DNA of 44,347 nucleotides, from contig PNKD01000020.1 in NCBI GenBank assembly GCA_013822265.1, forward strand, positions 1-44,347. The letters are read 5' to 3'. Both the position numbers and the translations under genes were made by a program. Each line of letters starts with the position of its first letter. Positions within the stretch are counted from its first letter, which is position 1. Positions 17,774 to 33,706 of the stretch are shown piece by piece. The notes under the pieces were generated by a model, which had not been told where the DNA came from, did no database searches, and saw only the letters and a program-made list of their open reading frames with translations. Origin of the DNA: Leptothrix sp. (in: b-proteobacteria) (GTDB lineage Bacteria; Pseudomonadota; Gammaproteobacteria; Burkholderiales; Burkholderiaceae_C).

Positions 17774-19972
17774 TCACAGGTCAGTGATGCGCACTTCGCC
17801 GGGGTTGCTGTACATGTCGATGACGCGGCAGTCGCTGCACATCTTCAGGCGTTCGGCCGCAGCGCCCTGGAAGGCGCTGTGGCCGGCCAGCCTGGCGGCC
17901 ATGTTCTCGATCGCGCGCAGCGTGCTGAAAGGCTTGTGGCACCTCACGCACGCCCAGGGCTGGTCCTGGGCAATGACGCGGGCGCTCTTGCGCGCCTTGC
18001 CGCCGTCGGCCAGCCACAGCCGCGGCTGCAGCGTGATGGCGCGCTCGGGGCAGGTGGTGGCGCACAGGCCGCACTGCACGCAGTTCTTCTCGATGAAACG
18101 CAGCTGCGGCGTGTCGGGGTTGTCGGCCAGCGCGGCCTCGGGGCAGGCGCCGACGCAGGCCAGGCACAGCGTGCACTTGTCGGCGTCGACCAGCAGGCTG
18201 CCGAAGGGCGCGCCGGCGGCAGGCAGCGCCACCTCGTCGGCGGGCTGCGGCGCCTGCGCCAGCAGGTGGTCCATGGCCAGTTCGAGCGTGGCGCGCTTGT
18301 CGGTCTGGACGGCAAAGGTGCCGGCCCGGGCCACGGTTTGCGCCGCCGCGGTGCGCAGCGCGGCGTCCAGCGCCGCGAGGTCGCGGGCGTCGCGGGCCTC
18401 GAGCAGCCTGAAGTGCTCGCCGCGGTAGCCCAGGCCGGTCAGCACGGCCTGGGCCACGGCCATCTGCTCGGCCAGCGCCTGGCGGTACTCCGGCGCCTCT
18501 TCATCCGTCAGCAGCACCCACACCTGGCTCGCGCCCTGGGCGATGGCCGCCAGCCACAGGTCGATGCCGACGCTGGCGGTGTGCCACAGCGCCAGCGGCA
18601 GCACGCGCGCGGGCAGGCCCTGCAGGTCGCGGCTGGCGCGTGCACCGCGGCCGAGGTCGTCGATCAGCCGCGCACCGGCGCCTTCGCTGTGCAGCAGCAG
18701 CGCCGCGGCGCCGGCTTGCGCCGGGCCGCCGGCGTGGCCGTAGGCGGCCAGCGCCGTGCGCAGGCGCCGGCCCATGTCGGCCGGGCCGGGATAGGCAAAA
18801 CTCAGCGCGCCGCTCGGGCACACCGTGCTGCAGGCGCCGCAGCCCACGCACAGGTGCGGCTCGACGGCGATGCCGCCGGCCTGCTCGCCCTTGGTCTTGC
18901 CCTTGCGCGACCCGTCGCTGCGCACGGCGCGTGCCGAACACACGTCGATGCATGCCGTGCAGCCCGTCTGCTCGTTGCGGCTGTGCGCGCAGAGCTTGGG
19001 CTGGTAGCGGAAGAAGCGCGGCTTCTCGAACTCGCCCACCAGCCCGCGCAGCTTCAGCACGGCGTCGGTCAGGCCGCGTTCGGCGCCGGCGCCACGCGTG
19101 GGCACGTGGAAGTAGCCCTGCGGCGGCTGGTGCTGGCTGAACGCGGGCTGCTCGCGCAGGTCGAGCACGAGGTCGAAGCGGTCTTCGTGCACGGTGGGTG
19201 CACGGTCGAAGTCGATGGCGCCGGCGGCGTCGCACACGCGCACGCAGTCGCGGTGGCTCTGGCAGGCCGCCAGGTCGACCTGGTAGTCGAGGCCGATGGC
19301 GCCCTCGGGGCAGGCGTCGACACAGGCGTTGCAGCGCGTGCAGACGTCGAGGTCGATGGGATTGGCGCTGCGCCACGCGACGTCGAACTGGCCGAGCCAG
19401 CCCGTGATCCGCGTCGGCTGGCCGGTGAAGGTGGCGCGGCCGTGGGCCTGTGCCAGCGCGCTGCCGCCCTGGCTGACGAGCACGCTCACGTCCAGCGTGT
19501 CGTCCAGCAGCGCGGCGGCGCGTTCGGCGGCCTGCGCCGGGCCGACCACCAGGCAGCGGCCGCCCGAGCGGTAGCTGGCGGTGGCCACGGGCTCGGGCGC
19601 CGGCAGCTGGGCCACGGCCAGCAGCGCGGCGATCTTGGGCGTGGCCGCGGCCTTGTCGCGCGACCAGCCCGCGGTCTCGCGGATGTTGACGAAGCGGATC
19701 GGCCGCTCGGCCACGCCGGCGGCGCCTTCGGTGGCGTCGTTCAGTTCGAGGAAGAGGCGGGCTTCCTGCGTGCAGGCCACCAGCAGCTCGTCGGCACTGG
19801 CACTGGTGGCCTTGGCCGCGCGCTGGAAGGCGCCGGCCTCGCGGCGGCACAGCAGCGTGTGGACGGTGTCGAGCCCGTCAGAGTGCGCGCCCGGCGTCTT
19901 CGCCAGCGCCTGGCGCAGGGCCAGGGCATCCAGCGTCATCGTCTGGTTGCAGTTGCAGATCAGTGTTTTCAT
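17774..19972 (-). CDS. Large multi-cluster 4Fe-4S ferredoxin-like protein
   Basis: This 732-residue soluble protein carries at least four ferredoxin-type cluster motifs: CTRCNACVDACP (about 220-231), CVGCGACSTVCP (about 375), CTLCLACVGACP (about 600) and CVQCGLCATTCP (about 635), plus an extra CTACIDVC. No catalytic domain is evident. Similar polyferredoxins sit with DUF3305/DUF3306 and formate dehydrogenase genes in Burkholderiales and Rhizobiales; electron transfer or cluster assembly for the enzyme is likely but unproven. The start MKTLICNCNQTM was chosen because upstream in-frame sequence is the out-of-frame shadow of the DUF3306 gene. It overlaps that gene by 95 bases. Confidence 0.85.
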   Translation of the reverse strand: MKTLICNCNQTMTLDALALRQALAKTPGAHSDGLDTVHTLLCRREAGAFQRAAKATSASADELLVACTQEARLFLELNDATEGAAGVAERPIRFVNIRETAGWSRDKAAATPKIAALLAVAQLPAPEPVATASYRSGGRCLVVGPAQAAERAAALLDDTLDVSVLVSQGGSALAQAHGRATFTGQPTRITGWLGQFDVAWRSANPIDLDVCTRCNACVDACPEGAIGLDYQVDLAACQSHRDCVRVCDAAGAIDFDRAPTVHEDRFDLVLDLREQPAFSQHQPPQGYFHVPTRGAGAERGLTDAVLKLRGLVGEFEKPRFFRYQPKLCAHSRNEQTGCTACIDVCSARAVRSDGSRKGKTKGEQAGGIAVEPHLCVGCGACSTVCPSGALSFAYPGPADMGRRLRTALAAYGHAGGPAQAGAAALLLHSEGAGARLIDDLGRGARASRDLQGLPARVLPLALWHTASVGIDLWLAAIAQGASQVWVLLTDEEAPEYRQALAEQMAVAQAVLTGLGYRGEHFRLLEARDARDLAALDAALRTAAAQTVARAGTFAVQTDKRATLELAMDHLLAQAPQPADEVALPAAGAPFGSLLVDADKCTLCLACVGACPEAALADNPDTPQLRFIEKNCVQCGLCATTCPERAITLQPRLWLADGGKARKSARVIAQDQPWACVRCHKPFSTLRAIENMAARLAGHSAFQGAAAERLKMCSDCRVIDMYSNPGEVRITDL

Positions 19973-20549
19973 CGGCGGCCAGCTCGGGGGGCGTGGGCAC
20001 GGCAGCTTCGGGCTGCGGTGCGAGTTCGGGGGCGGGGGGCGGGGTCGTGGGCGGAACCTGTTCTTCGGCGAACAGGCCCATGGCCTGGGCTTGAAGCATC
20101 TTGCGCAGCATGCCGTCGGGCAGGGGGTCGGGGATGCCGTAGTCGTCGATGTAGGTGTCCAGGCCGTCCATGACGTTGAAGTGCGGGTCGCTGAACAGCT
20201 TGCCCAGCGCGGCGTTGCGCACGTCGGGTTGCACGCTGCGGCCGACAAAACGCGAGTAGTCGGACTCGCGCGTCAAGGCGGCCACATCGTCCAGCGTGGG
20301 TGGTGCAGGCGCTGCCGCAGAGGGTGTGGCGCGTGGGCCGGGCGCGGCCGACGGTTGCGCGCCCTCAGGCGCGGCGGCCTCGCGCGGCGGTGCCTCATCG
20401 ACCGCCGGCAGCGGGTCGGCGAGGGCCGTCACGGTGGCGGGCTGCGTTGGCGGCCTGGCCACATCGACCACATCGGCGCCCTGGCGCACCTGCGCCTTGC
20501 GCCTCGACCAGCGCGACAGGAACCCGCTGTCTTCGGAGTCGGTGGACAT
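19878..20549 (-). CDS. DUF3306 protein, long form
   Basis: This 223-residue protein starts MSTDSEDSGFLSRWSRRKAQ, the usual DUF3306 opening. A Pro/Ala-rich linker follows, then a core with TLDDVAALTRESDYSRFV, RNAALGKLFSDPHFNVMDGL and IDDYGIPDPLP. The C-terminal 60 or so residues are low-complexity Pro/Glu/Ala. Its function is unknown; the family occurs next to molybdo-formate dehydrogenases. The last 95 bases overlap the ferredoxin gene in another frame, a long overlap implying coupled translation. A second DUF3306 copy lies at 21327-21647. It is divergent from the DUF3305 gene, sharing a 185-base promoter region. Confidence 0.85.
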   Translation of the reverse strand: MSTDSEDSGFLSRWSRRKAQVRQGADVVDVARPPTQPATVTALADPLPAVDEAPPREAAAPEGAQPSAAPGPRATPSAAAPAPPTLDDVAALTRESDYSRFVGRSVQPDVRNAALGKLFSDPHFNVMDGLDTYIDDYGIPDPLPDGMLRKMLQAQAMGLFAEEQVPPTTPPPAPELAPQPEAAVPTPPELAADENTDLQLQPDDDAGCPGPAPGAGEDAGRAL

Positions 20550-21673: not shown

Positions 21674-23080
21674 TCAGAGCCGCGCCTGCGCCAGCGCGCC
21701 GAGTTGCGCCACGAAGGTGGCCTCGGCCGCGGCGCCGTCCAGGCAGCGCATGTCCAGCCGCACCTGGCCGTCCTCGATGCGGCCGATCACCGGCACCGGC
21801 AGCGCACGCAGCGCTTCGGCCAGGCGGTCGGGCAGCCGGCCGGCGCGCTTGGCCCCGGCCGGGGCCCCGACGGCCACGCAGGCGCTGGGCAGGCGGTCGA
21901 CCGGCAGCGAGCCGCTGCCGATCTGGCTGCTGCACGGCAGCACCTGCACGCTGACGCGGTCGCCCAGTGCCAGGGCCACGGCCGGCGCGATGCGCTCGGC
22001 GACCTGCCGCAGCTCGGCCTGGCCACGCGTGAGCAGGCGCAGCGCGGGCAGCCGCTCGGCCAGGCGGTCGGGGTCGCGGTAGAGCTTGAGCGTGGCTTCC
22101 AGCGCGGCCAGCGTCATCTTGTCCAGCCGCAGCGAGCGCTTCAGCGGGTGGCGCTTGATCTTCTGGATCAACGCCTGGTCGCCGACGATGAGACCGGCCT
22201 GCGGCCCGCCCAGCAGCTTGTCGCCGCTGAAGGTGACGACGTTGGCGCCGGCGGCGATGGACTGCGCCGGCGTCGGCTCGGCCGGCAGGCCCCAGCGCGT
22301 GAGGTCGACCAGCGTGCCGCTGCCCAGGTCTTCGACGAAGGGCAGGCCGCGCGCCCTGCACAGGGCCGCCAGCTCGGCCACCGGCACGGCGGCGGTGAAA
22401 CCCTGGATGGCGTAGTTGCTGGCGTGAACCTTCATCACCAGCGCCGTGCGCGGGCCGAAGGCGTCTTCGAAGTCGCGCAGGTGGGTGCGGTTGGTGGTGC
22501 CCACCTCGACCAGCTTGGCGCCGGCGCGCCGCATGATGTCGGGGATGCGGAAGGCGCCGCCGATCTCGATCAGCTCGCCGCGCGACACCGGCACTTCCTT
22601 GCGGTCGGCCAGCGCGGCCAGCACCAGCAGCACGGCGGCGGCGTTGTTGTTGACGGCGGTGGCGGCCTCGGCGCCGGTGAGCTCCGTCAGCAGGCCGGCG
22701 ATGTGGTCGTCGCGGTCGCCGCGCGCGCCGCGGGCGAGGTCGAACTCCAGGTTGGAGGCGCCGCGCATCACCGCGACCACGGCGTCGATGGCCTCGGGTG
22801 CCATCACCGCGCGGCCCAGGTTGGTATGCAGCACGGTGCCGGTGAGGTTGAAGACCGGTCGCAGCGCCGCGGCGGCCTGCCGTTCCAGCGCGCTGCGGCA
22901 GGCGGCCTCGAACGCGGCCGTGTCGAAAGGCGTGGTCGCGGCCTCGGCGCGCCAGGCCTCGAGCGCGCTGCGGGCGGCGGCGCGCACGGCTGCGCGGCCG
23001 TGCTGCTGCGTCAGCGCGCGCAGGGTGTCGGATTCGAGCAGCTTGTCGAGCGCAGGCGGGCGGTGGGCGAGGGCGGTCAT
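21674..23080 (-). CDS. selA: L-seryl-tRNA(Sec) selenium transferase (selenocysteine synthase)
   Basis: This 468-residue PLP enzyme converts Ser-tRNA(Sec) to Sec-tRNA(Sec) using selenophosphate. The PLP lysine is K288 in TFSGDKLLGGPQAGLIVG. The TGTVLHTNLGRA segment (80-91), GASNLEFDLARG and TAVNNNAAAVLLVL are family hallmarks, and nothing essential looks degraded. Length matches the roughly 460-residue family. The start MTALAHRPPALDKLL at 23080 was chosen because a longer reading frame (to 23122) would run into the tRNA gene. Only 13 bases separate it from the tRNA 3' end, and no clear Shine-Dalgarno is visible there. It lies in selB-selC-selA order on one strand. SelD is not encoded in the window. 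Confidence 0.96.
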   Translation of the reverse strand: MTALAHRPPALDKLLESDTLRALTQQHGRAAVRAAARSALEAWRAEAATTPFDTAAFEAACRSALERQAAAALRPVFNLTGTVLHTNLGRAVMAPEAIDAVVAVMRGASNLEFDLARGARGDRDDHIAGLLTELTGAEAATAVNNNAAAVLLVLAALADRKEVPVSRGELIEIGGAFRIPDIMRRAGAKLVEVGTTNRTHLRDFEDAFGPRTALVMKVHASNYAIQGFTAAVPVAELAALCRARGLPFVEDLGSGTLVDLTRWGLPAEPTPAQSIAAGANVVTFSGDKLLGGPQAGLIVGDQALIQKIKRHPLKRSLRLDKMTLAALEATLKLYRDPDRLAERLPALRLLTRGQAELRQVAERIAPAVALALGDRVSVQVLPCSSQIGSGSLPVDRLPSACVAVGAPAGAKRAGRLPDRLAEALRALPVPVIGRIEDGQVRLDMRCLDGAAAEATFVAQLGALAQARL

Positions 23081-23093
23081 GGCGTCGGGCACG

Positions 23094-23190
23094 TGGCGGA
23101 GGGGGGTGGGAGTCGAACCCACCTGGGACCGCAGGGCAGCCCCACCCGGTTTTGCAGACCGGACGCCCCACCGGGGGACGATCCTCCTCC
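23094..23190 (-). tRNA. selC: tRNA-Sec with cysteine anticodon GCA (selC variant)
   Basis: This 97-nt tRNA (including encoded CCA) lies between selB and selA. On the minus strand: acceptor GGAGGAGG / CCCCCTCC, 8 bp with one A-C mismatch at pair 6; a 6-bp D stem CGTCCC/GGGGCG with a CCGGT loop; anticodon stem CCGGT/ACCGG with loop CTGCAAA; a long variable arm (GGGGCTGC/GCGGTCCC); a 5-bp T stem GTGGG/CCCAC with loop TTCGACT; discriminator G73, then CCA. This is the 8/5 tRNA-Sec architecture and aligns almost base for base with E. coli selC. The exception that matters is the anticodon: E. coli has TCA in CTTCAAA, here it is GCA, which reads UGC and UGU. G73 and the long arm favour SerRS charging; CysRS needs U73. 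It should feed SelA and SelB, not EF-Tu. Confidence 0.96.
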
Positions 23191-23237: not shown

Positions 23238-25160
23238 TCAGCCTTCGAACACCTTGCGGGGATCGCGCCTGAAATGCCGGCCCAAGTCGTCGCGCTTCGT
23301 CAAGCCGATCTGGTCGAAGTACTCTACCAGCGGCACCGAGAGGTGGCGGCTGATGCCCGTGGCCTCGCGCAGCGCCTTGACGTTCAGGCGCTTGTGCTCG
23401 TCGGCCTCGGCCAGCGCATGCGCATGCGCCGCCAGCTGCAGCAGGTGCGGCGTCTGGATGAAGTATTCGGCCCCCACCGCATGCACCTTGCCCATGCGTT
23501 CCAGGCGCTGCAGCACGCGCATCACCTGGTCCTTGCGCAGGCTGCGGTCGCGCAGCAGCATCTCGCTGAGCCGCGGCGGGTGCACGCCGCCTTCGTCGAG
23601 CCAGGGCTTCAGGCGTTCCCAGAGCGCCTTCTCGGCGCCTTGCAGCGATGCATCGTGGCCGGCCAGCGACAGGTGCGGGCCGCTGCGCTTGAGCGCGCCT
23701 TCCTTGACCAGCTGGCGCAGCAGCAGCGCGAACACGGCGCCGGCGGGCTTGTCGCGCACTGCGCGCTGCAGCGCTTCCTGCGTCAGGCCGGGGCTGTCGG
23801 GCTGCTTGCGGTGGAAGCCGGCCAGGTGGGCCGAGACCGCGCCGGCATAACGCTCGATCTGCCCGCTGGCGAACAGCAGCGCACGGCCGCCGTCCTCGAT
23901 GCTGCGGTGGGGCGCGGCATCCATCACGTGCCCGAGCTGGGCGCCGTCGAGGTTGTAGAGCGTGGCGAACTGGCGCGCGTCGACGCCGCCGGGCAACTCC
24001 AGCGCCAGCGCCGCCGCCAGCGCCTCGGCGGGGCCGGGCTGGGCCAACGCGGCCAGGGTCGCCAGGCGCTGCGCGCGGCGGCGGCGCGTGACGGGCGGGA
24101 AGGCGTCGAGCACCACGCCGCCGCCCAGCGTGCGCAGCGCCGACTGGTCGCGCAGGATGAAGCGGTCGCCGTGCAGCGCGCCGATGGCGCGGTCGAGGTC
24201 CAGCTGCACCAGCGCGCTGCGGCCGGGCTCGATCGCCTGGCCTTCCAGCAGCACGACGCGCGCGCCGACGTCCTCGGCGCCCAGGTGCAGGTGCACCGGC
24301 GTCCAGTGCGCCAGTGGGCGGGTTTCGCTGGCCAGCACCTGCAAGCGCACGTCCAGGCGCTGCGTCGGCGCGTGCAGAGCGTCGGCCACGATCCAGTCGC
24401 CGCGCCGCACGTCGTTCTTCTCGACGCCAGCCAGGTTCAGCGCCAGCCGCTGGCCGGCACGGCCGGTGGCGGCCTGCAGGCTCTGGGCGTGCAGGCCGCG
24501 CACGCGCACTTCCAGCCCGCGCGGCGAGAGCGTCAGCTTGTCGCCCACCGCCACCTGGCCCGACACCGCGGTGCCGGTGACCACGGTGCCGATGCCGGCG
24601 AGCGTGAAGCTGCGGTCCACCGCGAGGCGGAACTGGCCCGGCCGCCGCGCCGCGGGCGCCTGGGCCGCGGCCTGCGCCAGGTGGGCCTGCAGCGCGGGCA
24701 GGCCCGCGCCGGTGCGCGACGACACCGGCAGGATGGGGGCATCGGCCAGCGCGCTGCCGGCCAGCAGCGTGCGCACTTCGCCTTCGGCCTCGGCCAGGCG
24801 GGCCGGCGTGACGAGATCGCACTTGCTCAGCGCCACCGCGCCGCGGCCCAGGCCCAGCAGGTGCAGGATGGCCAGGTGCTCGCGCGTCTGCGGCATCGGG
24901 CCGTCGTCGGCAGCGATCACCAGCAGTACATGGTCGATGCCGGTGGCGCCGGCCAGCATGTTGCGCACCAGCTTCTCGTGGCCGGGCACGTCGACGAAAC
25001 CCAGCACCTCGCCGTCGGGCAGCGCGTGGTAGGCGAAGCCCAGGTCGACGGTGATGCCGCGCTCCTTCTCTTCCTTGAGCCGGTCGGCGTCGATGCCGGT
25101 CAGCGCCTTGACCAGCGAGGTCTTGCCGTGATCGATGTGTCCTGCGGTGCCGATGATCAC
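23238..25160 (-). CDS. selB: Selenocysteine-specific elongation factor SelB
   Basis: This 640-residue GTPase brings Sec-tRNA(Sec) to ribosomes stalled at a SECIS hairpin. The G domain shows [11 protein letters not shown] (G1, residues 4-14), ITVDLGFAY (G2 region), DVPGHE (G3) and SKCD (G4). Two beta-barrel domains and a C-terminal set of winged helices, which bind the SECIS RNA, follow; the last ends near [17 protein letters not shown] chose the GTG at 25160, which gives (M)[13 protein letters not shown] like E. coli MIIATAGHVDHGKT; upstream in-frame sequence is not conserved in character. AGGA lies about 14 bases upstream, a weak site. All motifs are intact, so the Sec delivery machinery is under selection. 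It is divergent from the formate dehydrogenase operon. Confidence 0.95.
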
Positions 25161-25738: not shown

Positions 25739-28705
25739 ATGCTCTTGACACGCAAGTCGGCAGCTGACGGGGCGACGTCGTCGTCCCGCACGCTCGTCGA
25801 CGGCCTGGCGCGAGGCTTGTCCCGCGCCATACCCACGATGGACAGGCGCAGGTTCCTGCGCCGATCCGGGTTGGGTCTCGGGGCCGGCATCGCGGCCACC
25901 CAGCTCACGCTCGTCCGCAAGGCCGACGCCGCCGCCGACGCCACGGCCGCGGCAGCCGCTTCAGGCGCCAAGGTCGAGGTCAAGCGCACGGTCTGCACCC
26001 ACTGCTCGGTGGGCTGCGCGATCGACGCCGTCGTCGAGAACGGCGTCTGGGTGCGGCAGGAGCCGGTGTTCGACTCTCCCATCAACATGGGGGCCCACTG
26101 CGCCAAGGGCGCGGCGGTGCGCGACAACGCGCATGGCGAATACCGCCTGAAGTACCCGATGAAGCTCGTGAACGGCAAGTACGAGCGCATCTCCTGGGAC
26201 GTGGCGCTGAACGAGATCAGCGCCAGGATGCTCGAGCTGCGCAAGGAAAGCGGCCCCGACAGCATCTTCATCGTCGGTTCGTGCAAGAGCAACAACGAGC
26301 AGGGGTACCTGCTCAGAAAGTGGATGTCCTTCTGGGGCAGTAACAACTGCGACCACCAGGCACGAATATGCCACTCCACTACTGTCGCCGGTGTGGCGAA
26401 TACGTGGGGCTACGGTGCGATGACCAACTCGTACAACGACATGCAGAACAGCAAGGCTGCGATGTATATCGGCAGCAATGCTGCCGAGGCGCATCCGGTG
26501 TCCTTGCTGCACATGCTGCATGCCAAGGAGAAGGGCTGCAAGATGATCGTGGTGGACCCCCGGTTCACCCGTACGGCAGCCAAGGCAGACCAGTACGTGC
26601 GCATGCGCTCGGGGGCGGACATCCCGTTCCTGTACGGTGTGCTGTACCACGTCTTCAAGAACGGCTGGGAAGACAAGCAGTACCTCAACGACCGTGTCTG
26701 GGCGATGGACAAGGTGCGCGACGAGGTGCTGGCCAAGTGGACGCCCGACAAGGTGTTCGAGGCCTCCGGCGTGACCGAGGCCGAGTGCCTGCAGGTCGCC
26801 CGCACGATGGCCGAGAACCGCCCGAGCACGCTGGTCTGGTGCGTGGGCCATACCCAGCACACCATCGGCAACGCGATGGTGCGGGCGTCGTGCCTGCTGC
26901 AACTGGCACTGGGCAACGTCGGCAAGAGTGGCGGCGGCGCGAACATCTTCCGCGGTCACGACAACGTGCAGGGCATCACCGACGTCGGCCCCAATCCCGA
27001 CTCGCTGCCGGGCTACTACGGCATCGTCGAAGGCTCGTTCAAGCACTACGCCGCGGTCTGGGGCGTCGACTTCGAGTGGATCAAGAAGCAGTACGCGCCG
27101 GGCATGATGTCCAAGCCGGGCCTGACCATCTCGCGATGGTTCGACGCCGTGCTCGAGAAGCCCGAGCTGATCGACCAGGAAGGCAACCTGCGCGGCATGT
27201 TCTATTGGGGCCACGCCCCGAACTCGCAGACGCGCGGCCTCGACCTGAAGAAGGCGATGGACAAGCTCGACCTGCTGGTGGTGGTCGACCCCTTCCCGTC
27301 GGCCACGGCGGCGATGGCGGCCATGCCCGGCAAGGCCGAGGACCTGAACCCCAAGCGTGGTGTCTACCTGCTGCCGGCGTGCACGCAGTTCGAGACCAGC
27401 GGCTCGGTCACGGCCTCGAACCGGTCGCTGCAGTGGCGCGAGAAGGTCATGGAGCCGCTGTACGAATCGCGCAGCGACCACATGATCCTGTACCAGCTGG
27501 CGCAGAAGCTGGGCTTCGGCGAGCAACTGGTCAAGAACTACAAGCTGCAGAAGGTCAAGGGCCAGGACGAGCCCGTGCCCGAGGACATCCTGCGCGAGAT
27601 CAATCGCTCCGTCTGGACCATCGGCTACACGGGCCAGAGCCCCGAGCGGCTGAAGGCGCACATGCGCAACATGCATGTCTTCGACGTCAACACGCTGAAG
27701 GCCAAGGGCGGCATCGACAAGGAGACCGGCTACAAGCTCGACGGCGAGTACTTCGGCCTGCCCTGGCCGTGCTGGGGCACGCCCGAGATGAAACACCCGG
27801 GCACCAGCAACCTGTACGACACGTCCAAGCACGTCATGGATGGCGGCGGCAACTTCCGCGCCAACTTCGGCGTCGAGCGTGACGGGCAGTCGCTGCTGGC
27901 GGCCGACGGCTCGCACTCCAAGGGCGCCGATCTCACCACCGGCTACCCCGAGTTCGATCACCTGCTGCTGAAGAAGCTGGGCTGGTGGGGCGAACTGACC
28001 GAGGACGAGCAGAAGAAGGCCGAGGGCAAGAACTGGAAGACCGACCCGTCGGGCGGCATCATCCGCGTGGCGATGACCAAGCACGGTTGCCACCCCTTCG
28101 GCAATGCCAAGGCGCGGGCCGTGGTCTGGAACTTCCCCGACCCGATCCCGCAGCATCGCGAGCCGCTGTACTCGACGCGGCCCGAACTGGTGGCCAAGTA
28201 CCCGACGCACGACGACCGCAAGGCCTTCTGGCGCCTGCCCACGCTGTTCAAGACGGTGCAGGAGGCGAACAAGGATGTGGGGCAGAAGTTCCCCCTCATC
28301 CTGACCAGCGGGCGCCTTGTCGAGTACGAGGGCGGCGGCGACGAGACGCGCTCGAACCGCTATCTCGCCGAACTGCAGCAGAACATGTTCATCGAGATCA
28401 ACCCGGCTGCAGCCAACGACCGCGGCATCCGCAATGGCGAGGAGGTGTGGGTGACCACGCCGACGGGTGCGCGCATCAAGGTGAAGGCGCAAGTGACCGA
28501 GCGCGTCGACAAGGGGACGACCTTCATGCCCTACCACTTTGCCGGCCACTGGCAGGGTGCGGACATGGAAACCTTCTACCCGAAGGGCGCGGCGCCGATC
28601 ATCCGCGGCGAGGCGGTCAACACCGCCACGACCTACGGCTACGACAGCGTGACCATGATGCAAGAGACCAAGACAACCGTCTGCCAGGTCGAGCGCGCGG
28701 CTTGA
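25739..28705 (+). CDS. fdhA: Formate dehydrogenase alpha subunit; catalytic Sec probably encoded by UGC
   Basis: This 988-residue Mo/W-bis-MGD enzyme oxidises formate to CO2 in the periplasm. RRRFLRRSGLG at residues 36-46 begins a Tat signal. The 4Fe-4S site uses C86, C89, C93 and C121. The active site reads ARI-x-HSTTVAGVA, where x is residue 211, followed by H212. Selenoenzyme relatives have Sec (UGA) here; this gene has TGC at 26369-26371. Rare codons for this genome (CGA, ATA, ACT, ACT, AAT) surround it, and a SECIS-like hairpin follows. With the GCA-anticodon tRNA-Sec nearby, Sec is the likely residue; plain Cys is the alternative. AGGAGG sits 7 bases before the ATG. Length is normal for this class. 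Confidence 0.97.
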   Translation: MLLTRKSAADGATSSSRTLVDGLARGLSRAIPTMDRRRFLRRSGLGLGAGIAATQLTLVRKADAAADATAAAAASGAKVEVKRTVCTHCSVGCAIDAVVENGVWVRQEPVFDSPINMGAHCAKGAAVRDNAHGEYRLKYPMKLVNGKYERISWDVALNEISARMLELRKESGPDSIFIVGSCKSNNEQGYLLRKWMSFWGSNNCDHQARICHSTTVAGVANTWGYGAMTNSYNDMQNSKAAMYIGSNAAEAHPVSLLHMLHAKEKGCKMIVVDPRFTRTAAKADQYVRMRSGADIPFLYGVLYHVFKNGWEDKQYLNDRVWAMDKVRDEVLAKWTPDKVFEASGVTEAECLQVARTMAENRPSTLVWCVGHTQHTIGNAMVRASCLLQLALGNVGKSGGGANIFRGHDNVQGITDVGPNPDSLPGYYGIVEGSFKHYAAVWGVDFEWIKKQYAPGMMSKPGLTISRWFDAVLEKPELIDQEGNLRGMFYWGHAPNSQTRGLDLKKAMDKLDLLVVVDPFPSATAAMAAMPGKAEDLNPKRGVYLLPACTQFETSGSVTASNRSLQWREKVMEPLYESRSDHMILYQLAQKLGFGEQLVKNYKLQKVKGQDEPVPEDILREINRSVWTIGYTGQSPERLKAHMRNMHVFDVNTLKAKGGIDKETGYKLDGEYFGLPWPCWGTPEMKHPGTSNLYDTSKHVMDGGGNFRANFGVERDGQSLLAADGSHSKGADLTTGYPEFDHLLLKKLGWWGELTEDEQKKAEGKNWKTDPSGGIIRVAMTKHGCHPFGNAKARAVVWNFPDPIPQHREPLYSTRPELVAKYPTHDDRKAFWRLPTLFKTVQEANKDVGQKFPLILTSGRLVEYEGGGDETRSNRYLAELQQNMFIEINPAAANDRGIRNGEEVWVTTPTGARIKVKAQVTERVDKGTTFMPYHFAGHWQGADMETFYPKGAAPIIRGEAVNTATTYGYDSVTMMQETKTTVCQVERAA
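26369..26371 (+). other. Putative UGC selenocysteine codon (codon 211 of formate dehydrogenase alpha)
   Basis: TGC occupies the position that is UGA (Sec) in E. coli fdnG, fdoG and fdhF. It matches the GCA anticodon of the neighbouring tRNA-Sec. The reading frame is open throughout, so automated annotation will translate it as Cys. Confidence 0.75.
26372..26409 (+). promoter_or_regulatory. SECIS-like hairpin directly after the UGC codon
   Basis: The upper stem TCGCC (26385-26389) pairs with GGCGA (26395-26399) around loop GGTGT. The lower stem CTCCAC (26374-26379) pairs with GTGGGG (26404-26409) with one T-G pair, leaving an internal loop. Counting the base after the codon as +1, the apical GGU is at +19 to +21 and a U at +14. 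As I recall E. coli fdhF, its loop GGU is also at +19 to +21 and its conserved bulged U at +14. In this hairpin the +14 U may pair with A at +28 or be bulged. Confidence 0.75.
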
Positions 28706-28795: not shown

Positions 28796-29422
28796 ATGGC
28801 AAGAATGAAGTTCATCTGTGACGCCGAGCGCTGCATCGAGTGCAACGGCTGCGTCACGGCCTGCAAGGCCGAACACGACGTGCCCTGGGGCGTCAACCGG
28901 CGCCGCGTGGTCACGCTCAACGACGGCGTGCCGGGCGAGCGCAGCATCTCGGTGGCGTGCATGCACTGCTCAGACGCGCCGTGCATGGCGGTGTGCCCCG
29001 TCGACTGCTTCTACCGCACCGCCGAGGGTGTGGTGCTGCACGACAAGGACGTTTGCATCGGCTGCGGCTACTGCTCGTATGCCTGCCCCTTCGGCGCACC
29101 CCAGTTCCCCAGCAACGGCACCTTCGGCCTGCGCGGCAAGATGGACAAGTGCACCTTCTGCGCCGGTGGTCCCGAGGCCAACACGAGTGCGGCCGAGAAC
29201 GAGAAGTACGGCCGCAACCGTCTGGCCGAGGGCAAGCTGCCCATCTGCGCCGAGATGTGCTCGACCAAGGCGCTGCTGGGCGGTGACGGCGACGTCGTGG
29301 CCGACATCTTCCGCACCCGAGTGCTCACGCGCGGCAAGGGCAGCGAGGTCTGGGGCTGGGGCACGGCCTATGGCAAGCCGGCCGGTGGCGGGCAGGGTCA
29401 GCCTGCGGGGACGAAGTCATGA
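28796..29422 (+). CDS. fdhB: Formate dehydrogenase beta subunit (4Fe-4S, FDH3 type)
   Basis: This 208-residue electron-transfer subunit moves electrons from the alpha subunit to the cytochrome b gamma subunit. Four ferredoxin-like cysteine groups are visible: C13, C16, C19 and C23 (CIECNGCVTAC); CMHCSDAPCMAVCP; CIGCGYCSYACP; and CTFC with a later CAEMC. Unlike E. coli FdnH it has no C-terminal membrane helix, and it lacks its own signal, so it should be co-exported with alpha. CAGGAG precedes the ATG. The stop overlaps the following lipoprotein gene by four bases (ATGA). Confidence 0.95.
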   Translation: MARMKFICDAERCIECNGCVTACKAEHDVPWGVNRRRVVTLNDGVPGERSISVACMHCSDAPCMAVCPVDCFYRTAEGVVLHDKDVCIGCGYCSYACPFGAPQFPSNGTFGLRGKMDKCTFCAGGPEANTSAAENEKYGRNRLAEGKLPICAEMCSTKALLGGDGDVVADIFRTRVLTRGKGSEVWGWGTAYGKPAGGGQGQPAGTKS

Positions 29423-29671: not shown

Positions 29672-30835
29672 ATGAACAGCTGGACCCGGAAGCTCATCCT
29701 CAGCCTGGCCCTGGCTTGGGCCGCCTGCACGCCGGCCCTGGCGCAGGGCGGTGCTGCAGCCGCACCGGCGGCCGAGGCCACCACGGCGGCCAAGGGCCCG
29801 CCGGCGGGCTTCGCGGCCCCCGCGTTGCCCAAGGAAGACGAGGGCAATGCCGCACGCGCCAAGTCGCAGCCAGGCAACAACGCCCCGATGTGGCGCGGCG
29901 TGCGCGAATCGGGCCAGACGCCGGGCAGCGTGAACCTGCCGGGCGCGGAGAAGGGCGTCCTGATCCAGTCTTTCGTGCAGTACCCTGGATCGAGCTTCAC
30001 CACCGCGGGCGAGGCTTGGCGGCAGGTTCGCAACCAGTGGATCATTCCGTATGGCGGCTCGCTCATCCTGCTGGTGGCCGCGGCCACCGCGCTCTTCTAC
30101 TTCACCAAGGGCCCGATCGGAGGCCATGAGGTCAATACCGGCCGCCTCATAGAACGCTTCACCTACCTCGAGCGCGTGGCGCATTGGTCGATGGCGATCA
30201 CGTTCGTCGTGCTGGCCATCTCCGGCATCGTGATGGCCTTCGGCAAGTTCTTCCTGCTGCCGGTACTGGGCGCAACGTTGTTCGGGTGGCTCAGCTATGC
30301 GCTGAAGACCGCGCACAACTTCGTGGGGCCGCTGTTCGCCGTGTCGCTGGTCGTGTTCGCGCTCATCTACATCAAGGACAACCTGCCCAAGGCGGCAGAC
30401 CTGGCCTGGCTCGCCAAGGGCGGCGGCTTGCTGAGTGGCAAGCAGGTGCCCTCGGGTCGCTTCAATGGCGGCGAGAAGTTCGTTTTCTGGGGCGGCGTGA
30501 TCGTGCTCGGGCTCACCGTGGTGGCGTCGGGCCTGGTGCTCGACCTGCTGATCCCGGGATGGGGCGAGACACGCGGCCAGATGCAGGTCGCGCACATGCT
30601 CCATGCCGCGGCCTCGGCGCTGATGACCGCGATGTTCATCGGCCACATCTATTTGGGCACGATCGGCGTCAAGGGCGCGCTGGACGCCATGAAAACCGGC
30701 TACGTCGACGAAGCCTGGGCCAAGGAGCACCATGAGCTGTGGCACGACGACGTGAAGGCCGGGCGTGTGCCCGCCATCCGTTCACAGTCGACGCCGCCGA
30801 TGGCCGCCGCGACCAGCTCACCCCACCGGGCCTGA
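29672..30835 (+). CDS. fdhC: Formate dehydrogenase gamma subunit (cytochrome b556)
   Basis: This 387-residue membrane subunit passes electrons to quinone. A Sec-type signal peptide (1-24, ending ALAQ) and a Pro/Ala-rich periplasmic stretch precede four helices: about 123-145, 172-190, 217-235 and 270-290, with a further segment near 312-330. Candidate heme ligands are H171 (ERVAHW), H215 (LKTAHNFVGP), H308/H311 (VAHMLH) and H325 (FIGHIY). It is longer than E. coli FdnI (217 residues) because of the N-terminal periplasmic extension, as in other Burkholderiales-type proteins. It is the last membrane component of the operon. Confidence 0.94.
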   Translation: MNSWTRKLILSLALAWAACTPALAQGGAAAAPAAEATTAAKGPPAGFAAPALPKEDEGNAARAKSQPGNNAPMWRGVRESGQTPGSVNLPGAEKGVLIQSFVQYPGSSFTTAGEAWRQVRNQWIIPYGGSLILLVAAATALFYFTKGPIGGHEVNTGRLIERFTYLERVAHWSMAITFVVLAISGIVMAFGKFFLLPVLGATLFGWLSYALKTAHNFVGPLFAVSLVVFALIYIKDNLPKAADLAWLAKGGGLLSGKQVPSGRFNGGEKFVFWGGVIVLGLTVVASGLVLDLLIPGWGETRGQMQVAHMLHAAASALMTAMFIGHIYLGTIGVKGALDAMKTGYVDEAWAKEHHELWHDDVKAGRVPAIRSQSTPPMAAATSSPHRA

Positions 30836-31256: not shown

Positions 31257-32189
31257 ATGTCCCTACAGCCTGAGACGCTGGCCCTGGCCGGTTCGTTTGG
31301 CGAAACTTCGGCAAGGCCGGTGGTGGCGGGCGCGCCGCGCCTGACAGCCGCGCACTGCGATCTGCTGCGCGAGATCCAGATCGTCGACGAGTACGGCGAG
31401 CGCCGCTCGATCCACATACCGGCCGAGCGCCCGCTGACGGTCTTCGTCGACAAGCGCGAGCTCGTCACGCTGATGACGCTGGGCCAGTGCCCCGAGCTGC
31501 TGGTGCTGGGTTACCTGCGCAACCAACGTCTCGTCGACACCGTGCAGCAGGTCGAGTCGATCACCGTCGACTGGGATGTCGGCGCCGCGGCCGTGCGCAC
31601 GCATGACGGCGTGCACGACCTGGCGGCCAAGACCACCACGCGCGTCGTCACCACGGGTTGCGGCCAGGGCACGGTCTTCGGCGACGCGATGAGCCAGCTG
31701 CACACCGTCACCCTGCCCGACGCCGCCACGGCACGCATCCGGCAGAGCACGCTGCACCGCATGCTGGAGACGATGCGCCAGCAGGAAAGCATTCACCGCA
31801 AGGCCGGGTCGGTTCACGGTTGCGCGCTGTTCCAGCTGCAGCCCCAGGGCTGCGAGATGCTGTGCTTCGTCGAAGACGTGGGCCGCCACAACGCCATCGA
31901 CACCATCGCCGGCTGGATGGCGATGCATGGCGTCGACGGCGCCGACAAGGCCTTCTACACCACGGGCCGCCTGACCAGCGAGATGGTGATGAAGGGCGCC
32001 CAGATGGGCGTGCCCATCGTGGTCTCGCGCAACGGCGTCACCGCGATGGGCCACGAGCTCGCGTCGCGCCTGGGCATGACGCTCTTCGGGCGCGCCGCCA
32101 ACCGGCACTTCCTCTGCTACACCGGGCTCGAGCGTTTCGACTCCGAGCCCGAACCGCAACGCGCCGCCGTGCGCGTCGTGGCCGGCTAG
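31257..32189 (+). CDS. fdhD: Formate dehydrogenase accessory sulfurtransferase FdhD
   Basis: This 310-residue cytoplasmic protein transfers sulfur from IscS to the Mo-bis-MGD cofactor, needed for formate dehydrogenase activity. The catalytic cysteine is C135 in VVTTGCGQGTVF. E. coli FdhD has two cysteines in a CxxC pair (C121/C124); here the second is replaced, leaving one. The C-terminal part has CFVEDVGRHNAIDTIAG and FYTTGRLTSEMVMKGAQMG, typical of the family. It starts 18 bases after the exported protein gene and ends the formate dehydrogenase operon, convergent with moeA. Confidence 0.95.
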   Translation: MSLQPETLALAGSFGETSARPVVAGAPRLTAAHCDLLREIQIVDEYGERRSIHIPAERPLTVFVDKRELVTLMTLGQCPELLVLGYLRNQRLVDTVQQVESITVDWDVGAAAVRTHDGVHDLAAKTTTRVVTTGCGQGTVFGDAMSQLHTVTLPDAATARIRQSTLHRMLETMRQQESIHRKAGSVHGCALFQLQPQGCEMLCFVEDVGRHNAIDTIAGWMAMHGVDGADKAFYTTGRLTSEMVMKGAQMGVPIVVSRNGVTAMGHELASRLGMTLFGRAANRHFLCYTGLERFDSEPEPQRAAVRVVAG

Positions 32190-32208: not shown

Positions 32209-33492
32209 TCACACCAGGCCGTCGAACAACCAGACGTCGACCAGGCCGCCTTCGGCCACCGAGCCCTGCTCGTGGCCCAGCACGACCAGGGCGTTGGCCT
32301 CGCACATGCTGCGCAGCACGCCGGCGCCCTGGGAGCCCGTCAGCCGCACCTGCCAGCCGCCGTCGGCGGCGCGTTCGACGATGCCGCGCTGGAACTCGGT
32401 ACGTCCTGGGCGTTTTCGCAGGGTGGCCGTGCTGCGCGCCTGCAGCGTGGGCAGCGGCTGCGGCGTCGCCCCGGCCAGCTGCAGCAGGGCGTCGCGCGCA
32501 AAGGCATAGAAGGTGACGAGGGCGGCCACCGGATTGCCGGGCAGCGCGAACAGCCAGCAGGGGGGTGCGGTGCCGGCGTGTGCAGCGCGGGTCAACGGAC
32601 CGAAGGCGAAGGGCCGACCCGGCCGCATCGCGACCTTCCAGAACGCCACCTCGCCCAGGCGCGCCAGCACCTCACGCGTGTGGTCGGCGTCGCCCATGCT
32701 CACGCCGCCGCTGGTCAGCACGACGTCGGCCTGCGCCATCGACGCCTCGAGCGCGGCCTGAAGTGCGGCCGGGTCGTCGGCCACCAGGCCCAGGTCGACG
32801 ACCTCCATGCCCAGCCGCTGCAGCGCGCCCATCAGGCTGTAGCGGTTGCTGTCGTAGACGCTGCCGGCATCCAGCGGCTGGCCCAGCGTGCGCAGTTCGT
32901 CGCCGGTCGAAAAGAGCGCCACGCGCAACCGCCTGCGTACCGCCACCTCGGCGATGCCCAGCGAGGCCACCAGCCCCAGGTCGGCTGGCCTGAGCACACG
33001 CCCGGCATGCAGTGCCGGGCGGCCTGCCGTCAGATCCTCGCCGCGGCACCGGCGGTTGTCACCGGGGCGCACGACGCCGGCGTCGATGTGCACGACATCG
33101 CCGTCGACGCGGCAAAGCTCCAGCGGCACCACGGTGTCCAGGCCCGCCGGCATCACGGCGCCGGTCATGATGCGCAGGCACTGGCCGGCAGCGACCTTGC
33201 CGGCATAAGGCGCGCCCGCGAACAGCGTGCCCACCGACTGCAGCCGCGTGGCACCTGCCGGCTGCAGGCCGGCACCGTGAAACGCGTAGCCGTCCATCGC
33301 CGAGTTGTCGTGCGCTGGCACGTCGATGGGCGAGATCACGTCGTCTGCCAGCACACGCCCCAGGGCCTGGGTCAGCGGCACGGTCTCGCTGCCGGCGATG
33401 GGCTGCAAGGCTGCCGCAATGGCGGCTCGGGCTTGGGCCACGCTGAGGTTGCGATCGCCGGCCGTCAGCGGCGACTCTGCGAGTTCGGTCAT
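32209..33492 (-). CDS. moeA: Molybdopterin molybdotransferase MoeA
   Basis: This 427-residue enzyme inserts molybdate (or tungstate) into adenylated molybdopterin. Motifs are VPAHDNSAMDGYAF near residue 60, STGDELRTLGQPL, the SGGVSMGDADHTREVL MoCF-binding segment and LPGNPVAALVTF. I chose the start MTELAESPLTAGDR at 33492, preceded by AGGAAGAGA, rather than an upstream in-frame ATG at 33582. It is convergent with fdhD (19-base gap, which holds the palindrome GCCGCCGGCGGC). The 214 bases upstream, shared with the ABC genes, show no distinct element. Confidence 0.95.
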   Translation of the reverse strand: MTELAESPLTAGDRNLSVAQARAAIAAALQPIAGSETVPLTQALGRVLADDVISPIDVPAHDNSAMDGYAFHGAGLQPAGATRLQSVGTLFAGAPYAGKVAAGQCLRIMTGAVMPAGLDTVVPLELCRVDGDVVHIDAGVVRPGDNRRCRGEDLTAGRPALHAGRVLRPADLGLVASLGIAEVAVRRRLRVALFSTGDELRTLGQPLDAGSVYDSNRYSLMGALQRLGMEVVDLGLVADDPAALQAALEASMAQADVVLTSGGVSMGDADHTREVLARLGEVAFWKVAMRPGRPFAFGPLTRAAHAGTAPPCWLFALPGNPVAALVTFYAFARDALLQLAGATPQPLPTLQARSTATLRKRPGRTEFQRGIVERAADGGWQVRLTGSQGAGVLRSMCEANALVVLGHEQGSVAEGGLVDVWLFDGLV

Positions 33493-33706
33493 CGTCTCTT
33501 CCTGCACCGGCGTGGTTGCCGTGGTTAGCCTCGCCGCACCGACCAGGGCGCCTGGCCTGCGGCTGGCGACGCCATTCTGCACGGGCCGCCGGCCGCCGCG
33601 CCGATGCCGATGCCGACGATGCTAGGCAAGCGCCTGCATATCGGTGGCCCGACGCCGGCACGGCAGAATCGGCGGCCCGCCCCGGCCAGCCATCACGTCT
33701 CGCTGC

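Follow-up and report, generated by a model that had tools for sequence, protein, structure and literature searches.

The window, a stretch of 44,347 nt from Leptothrix sp., holds a tRNA gene set among genes of the selenocysteine (Sec) machinery, next to a formate dehydrogenase (FDH) operon. The features of the locus are listed below, where the clade means the lineage carrying this tRNA and its target site:

21674..23080, minus strand: selA, selenocysteine synthase (TIGR00474, 580 bits; ATG at 23080)
23094..23190, minus strand: tRNA-Sec gene with anticodon GCA, 97 nt including the encoded CCA, G73
23238..25160, minus strand: selB, Sec-specific elongation factor (TIGR00475, 403 bits; start taken as GTG 25160)
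25739..28705, plus strand: fdhA, alpha subunit of an FDH3-type formate dehydrogenase, likely target selenoprotein (Pfam molybdopterin domains)
26363..26368, plus strand: rare codon pair CGA-ATA immediately 5' of the TGC codon (19/19 clade genes versus 0/77 comparators)
26369..26371, plus strand: TGC codon, residue 211 of fdhA, proposed Sec codon (TGC in 19/19 clade genes)
26374..26409, plus strand: SECIS-like hairpin, lower stem CTCCAC/GTGGGG, upper stem CGCC/GGCG, U at 26385, loop GGTGT at 26390-26394
28796..29422, plus strand: fdhB, FDH3 beta subunit, iron-sulfur (NF038355 FDH3_beta, 337.5 bits, cut-off 240)
29672..30835, plus strand: fdhC, FDH gamma subunit, cytochrome b (TIGR01583, 167.5 bits, cut-off 115.85)
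31257..32189, plus strand: fdhD, FDH accessory sulfurtransferase (PF02634, 246 bits; TIGR00129, 125 bits, under its cut-off of 141)
32209..33582, minus strand: moeA, molybdopterin molybdotransferase, a cofactor gene flanking the operon (NF007960, 541 bits, cut-off 440)

A sequence-only reading of this DNA had placed the tRNA gene between selB and selA, and the profile matches together with the start codons confirm this arrangement. The ATG of selA lies 13 bases past the CCA end of the tRNA on the same strand; a longer selA reading frame begins at GTG 23122, within the tRNA gene. SelA aligns with the solved SelA 8uzw including the motif SGDKLLGG, which we take to be the segment holding the PLP lysine, and SelB contains the Pfam SelB winged-helix domains and aligns over nearly its full length with SelB 5lzb. 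The order fdhA-fdhB-fdhC-fdhD runs divergently from the sel genes and is followed by moeA and by an ABC permease gene that is TupB-like, at a score under that model's cut-off. FdhA was assigned to the FDH3 type through the match of its beta partner to NF038355. Its closest solved chain is 9vap, with which it has ARICHSTTVAGVANTWGYGA in common, and in the alignment with 9t1s its residue 211 falls on an X of the chain sequence, probably Sec. A large multi-ferredoxin protein of 824 aa (17774-20248 of the window) is often encoded near the GCA locus; in G014, G038 and G046 it lies close to plain FDH3 genes.

ARAGORN reports a single tRNA in the window (23094-23190, minus strand), whose anticodon it reads as gca and which it labels tRNA-Cys. 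The Rfam tRNA-Sec model matches the gene over model positions 1-91 of 91 with 69 bits (cut-off 47), and tRNA-Sec is the sole Rfam family above its gathering score for this segment. The view that this is a full tRNA-Sec with a GCA anticodon is thus confirmed, and the one-base difference from the UCA anticodon of E. coli selC had been described correctly. The structural marks listed at that time (8-bp acceptor, 5-bp T stem, 6-bp D stem, long variable arm, G73 and encoded CCA) were all borne out: the GCA tRNA-Sec body consists of an acceptor of 8 bp, a D stem of 6 bp, an anticodon stem of 6 bp, a variable arm of 8 bp and a T stem of 5 bp. We aligned 14 distinct tRNA-Sec rows, namely 13 GCA sequences from 15 genomes and the TCA tRNA of G021, in which standard pairs make up 97.4% of the pair cells. 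The five T-stem pairs are present in 14/14 distinct rows, and G73 in 16 aligned rows. Ten of the 14 rows have a single acceptor mismatch, located at pair 6 in five rows and at pair 8 in the other five. The A.C at acceptor pair 6 that had been remarked upon is therefore real and not confined to the window, being shared by 5/14 distinct rows, and four second-genus tRNAs (L334-L337) have C.A at this position. Two-sided covariation in the GCA tRNAs amounts to one pair, as much as is reached in 464 of 500 shuffles.

Sequencing or assembly error in the anticodon can be excluded, since 15 of 81 genus genomes and four from another genus, 19 in all, have the GCA tRNA. Excluded as well is the idea that it serves as the only tRNA-Cys of the genome, because an ordinary 74-nt tRNA-Cys(GCA) adjoins tRNA-Gly and tRNA-Leu genes elsewhere in the window's genome. 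A second tRNA-Sec above the cut-off was not found in that genome (97% complete, 251 contigs, 4.38 Mb), so that a standard UCA selC, which would have spoken against the earlier reading, is absent at this cut-off; two relatives, G084 and G104, do carry both kinds. With GCA in place of UCA, the tRNA departs from the anticodon expected of a bacterial tRNA-Sec. Since published work counts anticodon variants as tRNA-Sec (PMC8124441 and PMC7609411, in passages), GCA defines a subtype and does not place the molecule outside the tRNA-Sec class. Nor is it an allo-tRNA, whose acceptor domain is given as 8/4 or 9/3 in the relevant part of PMC7609411: the window tRNA combines 8 acceptor with 5 T-stem pairs.

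The proposed target codon, TGC at residue 211, is one of 15 Cys codons in the window's fdhA, all of which are TGC. Around it, the 19 clade fdhA genes (16 from the genus and 3 from the second genus) are identical in CGA-ATA-TGC-CAC-TCC and, further downstream, in GTC-GCC-GGT-GTG-GCG-AAT-ACG-TGG. Within the hairpin only the third bases of two Thr codons vary, both in the internal loop; nearby, variation is seen in the Ala codon preceding CGA and, immediately past the hairpin, at the third base of Gly224. The hairpin pattern search tolerated up to three mismatches, and all 15 GCA genomes matched with 0 or 1; the second-genus fdhA genes were located independently of the pattern. This invariance stands out from the rest of the gene. 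FdhA proteins of the clade are 77-97% identical, and among their genes the divergence at four-fold third positions is 15-49% (mean 37%). As a control for relatedness, codons 209-227 were compared with the remainder of the same genes: in the 14 complete clade genes, 11/14 degenerate codons are invariant at 209-227 versus 51/343 elsewhere (Fisher p 4.6e-7). The top 15-codon windows of fdhA fall at the target site (0.914; mean 0.718, sd 0.072).

Downstream of the codon, all 19 genes can form the complete hairpin with a 6-bp lower stem, U13, a 4-bp upper stem and a GGU-type loop, versus none of 77 plain-Cys homologues. As a within-genome control, the second FDH3 gene of G006 does not have the element. 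Near misses occur among the plain-Cys FDH3 genes: 13/77 have every part (U13, upper stem, RGU loop) except a complete lower stem, and in 4/77 both stems and U13 are present and only the GGU loop is missing. Parts of the hairpin being this frequent in plain-Cys comparators, the FDH3 family is half prepared for it by protein sequence. We therefore discarded the hairpin of any one gene as proof and placed the weight on its invariance across species.

The architecture corresponds to that of canonical SECIS elements in the genus. At the 22 sites in its UGA-coded FDH genes the codon is followed by 13 nt, U, 4 bases, a loop [A/G]GUCU and 4 pairing bases, and the clade UGC hairpin reads 13 nt, U, CGCC, GGUGU, GGCG with the same spacing. 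In all 19 clade genes the U, the short upper stem and the GGU-type loop are thus placed as in the UGA FDH genes. Bacterial SECIS elements require a bulged-out U; at minimum energy the clade hairpin folds with U13 paired to A27, and in the folded UGA sites the U stays unpaired. The loop begins 18 nt past the codon, within the 16-37 nt at which the apical loop of bacterial SECIS elements is placed in a section of PMC10778597. The constraint also reaches upstream into the CGA-ATA pair. Both codons are rare in the 16 clade fdhA genes in which usage was counted: ATA accounts for 11 of 512 other Ile codons and CGA for 16 of 857 other Arg codons. The fixed CGA-AUA is a candidate pause site. For the UGA case, a passage in PMC4513850 raises the point that one ribosome may follow another too soon for a SECIS to refold. 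The pair occurs outside the UGC system as well: CGA-ATA precedes TGA in one UGA gene, that of G068 (L284). SelD was considered as a further TGC target and discarded, because its active-site region varies synonymously (13 genes, by eye).

Most of the genomes surveyed are drafts in many contigs. In the genus, the tRNA-Sec model was run on 58 of 81 genomes; the remaining 23 had given no selA match. Besides the 15 genomes with a GCA tRNA-Sec, two of which (G084 and G104) carry both kinds, 20 of the 58 have a TCA tRNA-Sec alone, and G021 has the clade's tRNA body with TCA. Weaker matches to the model (L032-L037) are tRNA-Ser. The SECIS-TGC pattern was found in 16/81 genus genomes, comprising 15/15 with the GCA tRNA plus G073, whose fdhA lies on a 4.1-kb contig and in which no tRNA-Sec was found. 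In a family sample of 399 genomes, four of the five sampled from a second genus have the GCA tRNA; in these four, selB, selA and the fdh genes share one locus with it, and the same TGC/hairpin site is present in the three with a complete fdhA. Exact matches to a generic pattern yielded no further ARAGORN-accepted case in a phylum sample (398 genomes) and an order sample (399). In the latter, 105 matches fell in 100/399 genomes, of which 99 read TCA, not each being verified as a tRNA; the remaining six were the window's own GCA gene and five matches rejected by ARAGORN. Pattern matches with GCA, CCA or ACA in G252, G293, G370, G820, G1085, G985, G938 and G1216 were likewise not accepted as tRNAs by ARAGORN. 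A UGA-coded FDH relative (E <= 1e-100) occurs in 22/81 genus genomes, namely in 18 of the 20 TCA-only genomes (all except G071 and G075) and in G082, G088, G104 and G002. None was found in 13 GCA genomes, the remaining two of the 15 being G104 and G002; UGA-coded FDH and GCA tRNA are thus nearly mutually exclusive within the genus. A 3-kb contig of G002 (C183, L317) carries at its edge the C-terminal end of a UGA-type FDH alpha subunit together with beta and gamma subunits. No UCA tRNA-Sec was found in G002, and this piece is a fragment or contamination.

Taken together, a tRNA-Sec(GCA) and a target gene in which UGC is followed by a SECIS-like hairpin are both present, and these are two marks of Cys-codon recoding. 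Judged from comparative sequence evidence, the tRNA is very probably a working tRNA-Sec(GCA), with SelB and the SECIS placing Sec at the single UGC 211 of fdhA. SerRS would charge the GCA tRNA with serine, and SelA would convert Ser to Sec on the tRNA, using selenophosphate from SelD. The clade's own SelB would then carry the Sec-tRNA and dock on the hairpin just 3' of codon 211, so that Sec is placed at this single UGC, fdhA presumably being the sole target. Other UGC and UGU codons have no hairpin and would be read as Cys by the ordinary tRNA-Cys. As Cys-tRNA-Cys must compete at UGC 211, Sec insertion there may be partial, at whatever efficiency this competition would allow. The comparative evidence supports the essence of the sequence-only reading, which had proposed a Ser-charged, SelA-converted tRNA-Sec decoding a Cys codon from a single locus with its target.

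Three other explanations have to be weighed. The tRNA could belong with the selC* tRNA-Cys as an isoacceptor for Cys: SelB would deliver it carrying Cys, and the enzyme would remain a Cys enzyme. Such tRNAs have a tRNA-Sec-like shape and often GCA, and delivery by SelB is described for one (accounts in PMC7609411 and PMC11415595); the ARAGORN label of the window tRNA, tRNA-Cys, would fit as well. The selC* tRNA-Cys are, however, described in part of PMC7609411 with a modified 8/4 shape and with U73, which is named there as an identity element of tRNA-Cys. The window tRNA has G73 and five T-stem pairs, hence not the 8/4 acceptor domain with a bulged A51a. Moreover, selA and selD, which would be useless for Cys, are mostly kept. 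We found selA in 36/81 genus genomes including 14 of the 15 GCA genomes, the one miss being G070 (76% complete), and selD in 13/16 clade genomes, where the three misses are 73, 78 and 89% complete. That selA is missing next to the tRNA in G069, G009, G070, G002 and G103 seemed to count against the reading, but all of these except G070 have a selA elsewhere in the genome. The SelA proteins encoded beside the tRNA form a separate clade with the SelA of G021 as sister, whereas a selA of the canonical type is present in G001, G002, G009 and G069 (by tree) and in G103 and G073 (by identity), in each case without a canonical selB or tRNA alongside. The linked selA is gone in G001, G002, G009, G069 and G103, and a canonical-type selA is found there instead. 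SelA thus seems to have been replaced rather than lost, which argues for a need of Sec synthesis. SelB-delivered Cys at a Cys codon would, in addition, bring no gain. We consider a selC*-type tRNA-Cys highly improbable.

Less probable still is a Sec system in decay, with an enzyme that now uses Cys and with tRNA, SelB and SelA as drifting relics. The enzyme family naturally uses Cys, the target is a normal Cys codon, and some tRNA rows have mismatches at two acceptor-stem positions, as such relics might. Drift is nevertheless difficult to reconcile with an invariant hairpin and fixed rare codons in 19/19 genes, or with the 16 genus genomes selected by the hairpin, in 15 of which the tRNA body was found, with GCA throughout. 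The SelB proteins of 14 GCA genomes form their own clade with full support (100/100), and dN/dS is 0.14-0.27 in three pairs (dN 0.03-0.17, dS 0.21-0.63); clade SelB is under purifying selection. The FDH3 tree, in which Cys is likely ancestral and the SECIS derived, also runs against decay, which predicts the reverse. This FastTree phylogeny was built from FDH3 alpha proteins, with its root placed towards G046 and G038. It gathers the 17 complete clade genes in one group (0.986) that lies among plain-Cys genes, each successive sister being plain-Cys. From this nesting, Cys is probably the ancestral state, with the SECIS and Sec reading derived. Equally remote is the proposal that the constrained fdhA stretch is another RNA or DNA element (regulation, an overlapping gene) and that the tRNA has its target elsewhere: the constraint does extend beyond the hairpin to CGA-ATA, upstream of the codon, but spacing, U13 and the RGUNU loop match the genus's UGA SECIS at the homologous residue, the element accompanies the GCA tRNA alone among the 81 genus genomes apart from G073, and among 80 named homologues it occurs in one, which comes from G005, a genome of the clade itself (identified as the MAG 'Rubrivivax sp. 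isolate SJ720' by its contig C182, the reverse complement of L105).

Returning to a functional tRNA-Sec(GCA), the phylogeny suggests that Sec was probably gained at an existing Cys codon. The second genus falls within the clade in the FDH3 alpha tree, which suggests transfer of the cassette or a taxonomic boundary that cuts through the group. The history probably started from an ancestral cassette in which a UCA tRNA served a UGA-coded FDH. This cassette would then have lost its UGA FDH and adopted a cysteine-type FDH3, which would have acquired its SECIS through synonymous changes, and the first anticodon base of the tRNA would have changed from U to G. In E. coli with overproduced sel genes, the UCA machinery gave 75Se labelling of a UGC construct, at a lower level than UGA, according to an experiment in PMC3834832, and the enzymes that handle tRNA-Sec do not bind its anticodon arm, as stated in PMC7609411. 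These two points make such a switch plausible. G021 looks like the state before the anticodon switch: in this genome (L198, 8385-13280) the clade tRNA body with TCA and a selA of the clade type occur with a UGA FDH alongside, and selB was not located.

Two GCA genomes appear to hold a UCA system in addition. G104 carries, besides the GCA system with its own selA on contig C30 (L195), a UGA/TCA FDH-N operon on contig C194 (L320), consisting of the tRNA, selB, an fdhE-like gene, fdhC, fdhB, fdhA and fdhD, and no selA. It is likely a genome with two Sec codons and one SelA for both. In G084, a TCA tRNA-Sec on contig C10 (L319, 1783-3896) is accompanied by a second SelB, a distant one (41% identity); no selA adjoins it, and no target gene was found beside this system. 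Both genomes are listed with 5% contamination. The tetranucleotide profiles of the paired loci correlate with r 0.988 and 0.98, a weak test, since other genus genomes reach 0.97-0.98 on the same contigs. Neither second locus has its own selA in the stretches examined, and the selA of each genome is of the GCA type only; this pattern favours UCA and GCA systems within one genome and is not proof of it. A related observation comes from G075, where an unusual SelB (35% identity) is encoded together with a TCA tRNA-Sec on contig C191 (L322, 6837-8893); neither an FDH-N type UGA gene in the genome nor a target beside the UCA system was found.

A more tentative extension, for which we would not claim even odds, is that the arrangement acts as a selenium-conditional fail-safe code. 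With selenium the cell would make the Sec enzyme; without it, a Cys codon in a gene of Cys-enzyme ancestry would still give a full-length Cys protein, not a truncated one as at UGA. A ribosome slowed at CGA-AUA, directly ahead of the UGC, would let SelB outcompete Cys-tRNA-Cys, and G104 and G084 would run both codes with one SelA.

Assigning Sec to a Cys codon is not in itself new. Mukai et al. 2016 are credited in reviews with Sec at UGU/UGC through a variant tRNA-Sec (passages in PMC10778597, PMC11415595 and PMC8124441), in agreement with the statement in the sequence-only reading that a sense-codon tRNA-Sec is known from Aeromonas salmonicida. For this species the Cys codon read as Sec is given as UGU in PMC10778597 and as UGC in PMC11415595; the passage in PMC8124441 mentions UGC/UGU recoding and names no species. 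A GCA anticodon on tRNA-Sec and Sec at a Cys codon are common to the A. salmonicida system, as summarised in these reviews, and to ours. The passages name one species, whereas we count 19 genomes in two genera of one family; and, unlike the A. salmonicida case in so far as these reviews describe it, our lineage has an FDH3-type UGC target with plain-Cys relatives, a fixed CGA-AUA and two relatives with both UCA and GCA tRNAs. The canonical system of the genus (FDH-N/O, UGA, UCA, selA-selB) has in common with the GCA clade the sel genes, the hairpin spacing and the residue position in the FDH alpha subunit. It differs in that the clade has the anticodon GCA, a UGC codon, another FDH subfamily and a separate SelB clade. 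The selC* tRNA-Cys found with SelB in Desulfotomaculum nigrificans and others resemble the clade tRNA in a tRNA-Sec-like body, an often Cys-type anticodon and SelB delivery, as far as these are outlined in the sources; they are described there with U73, an 8/4 body and Cys charging, whereas the clade tRNA has G73, an 8/5 body and selA. This kind of recoding had been published, while its clade-wide fixation, its origin from a Cys enzyme and the two likely two-codon genomes are apparently new. In our literature search, mostly judged from listings, we recognised no publication covering this lineage, which does not imply its absence from print.

These results point to a sense-codon reading of Sec that is fixed in a lineage and not a single oddity. 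The states found, from G021 (UCA with a UGA enzyme) over the GCA clade and the plain-Cys homologues to the two apparent two-code genomes, form a ladder on which one could test by what steps a codon acquires another meaning, by what means SelB wins over a competing aminoacyl-tRNA, and whether Cys can become Sec without a stop codon in between. For annotation it matters that ARAGORN gives the GCA tRNA-Sec the label tRNA-Cys, and that selenoproteins of this kind escape searches for in-frame UGA.
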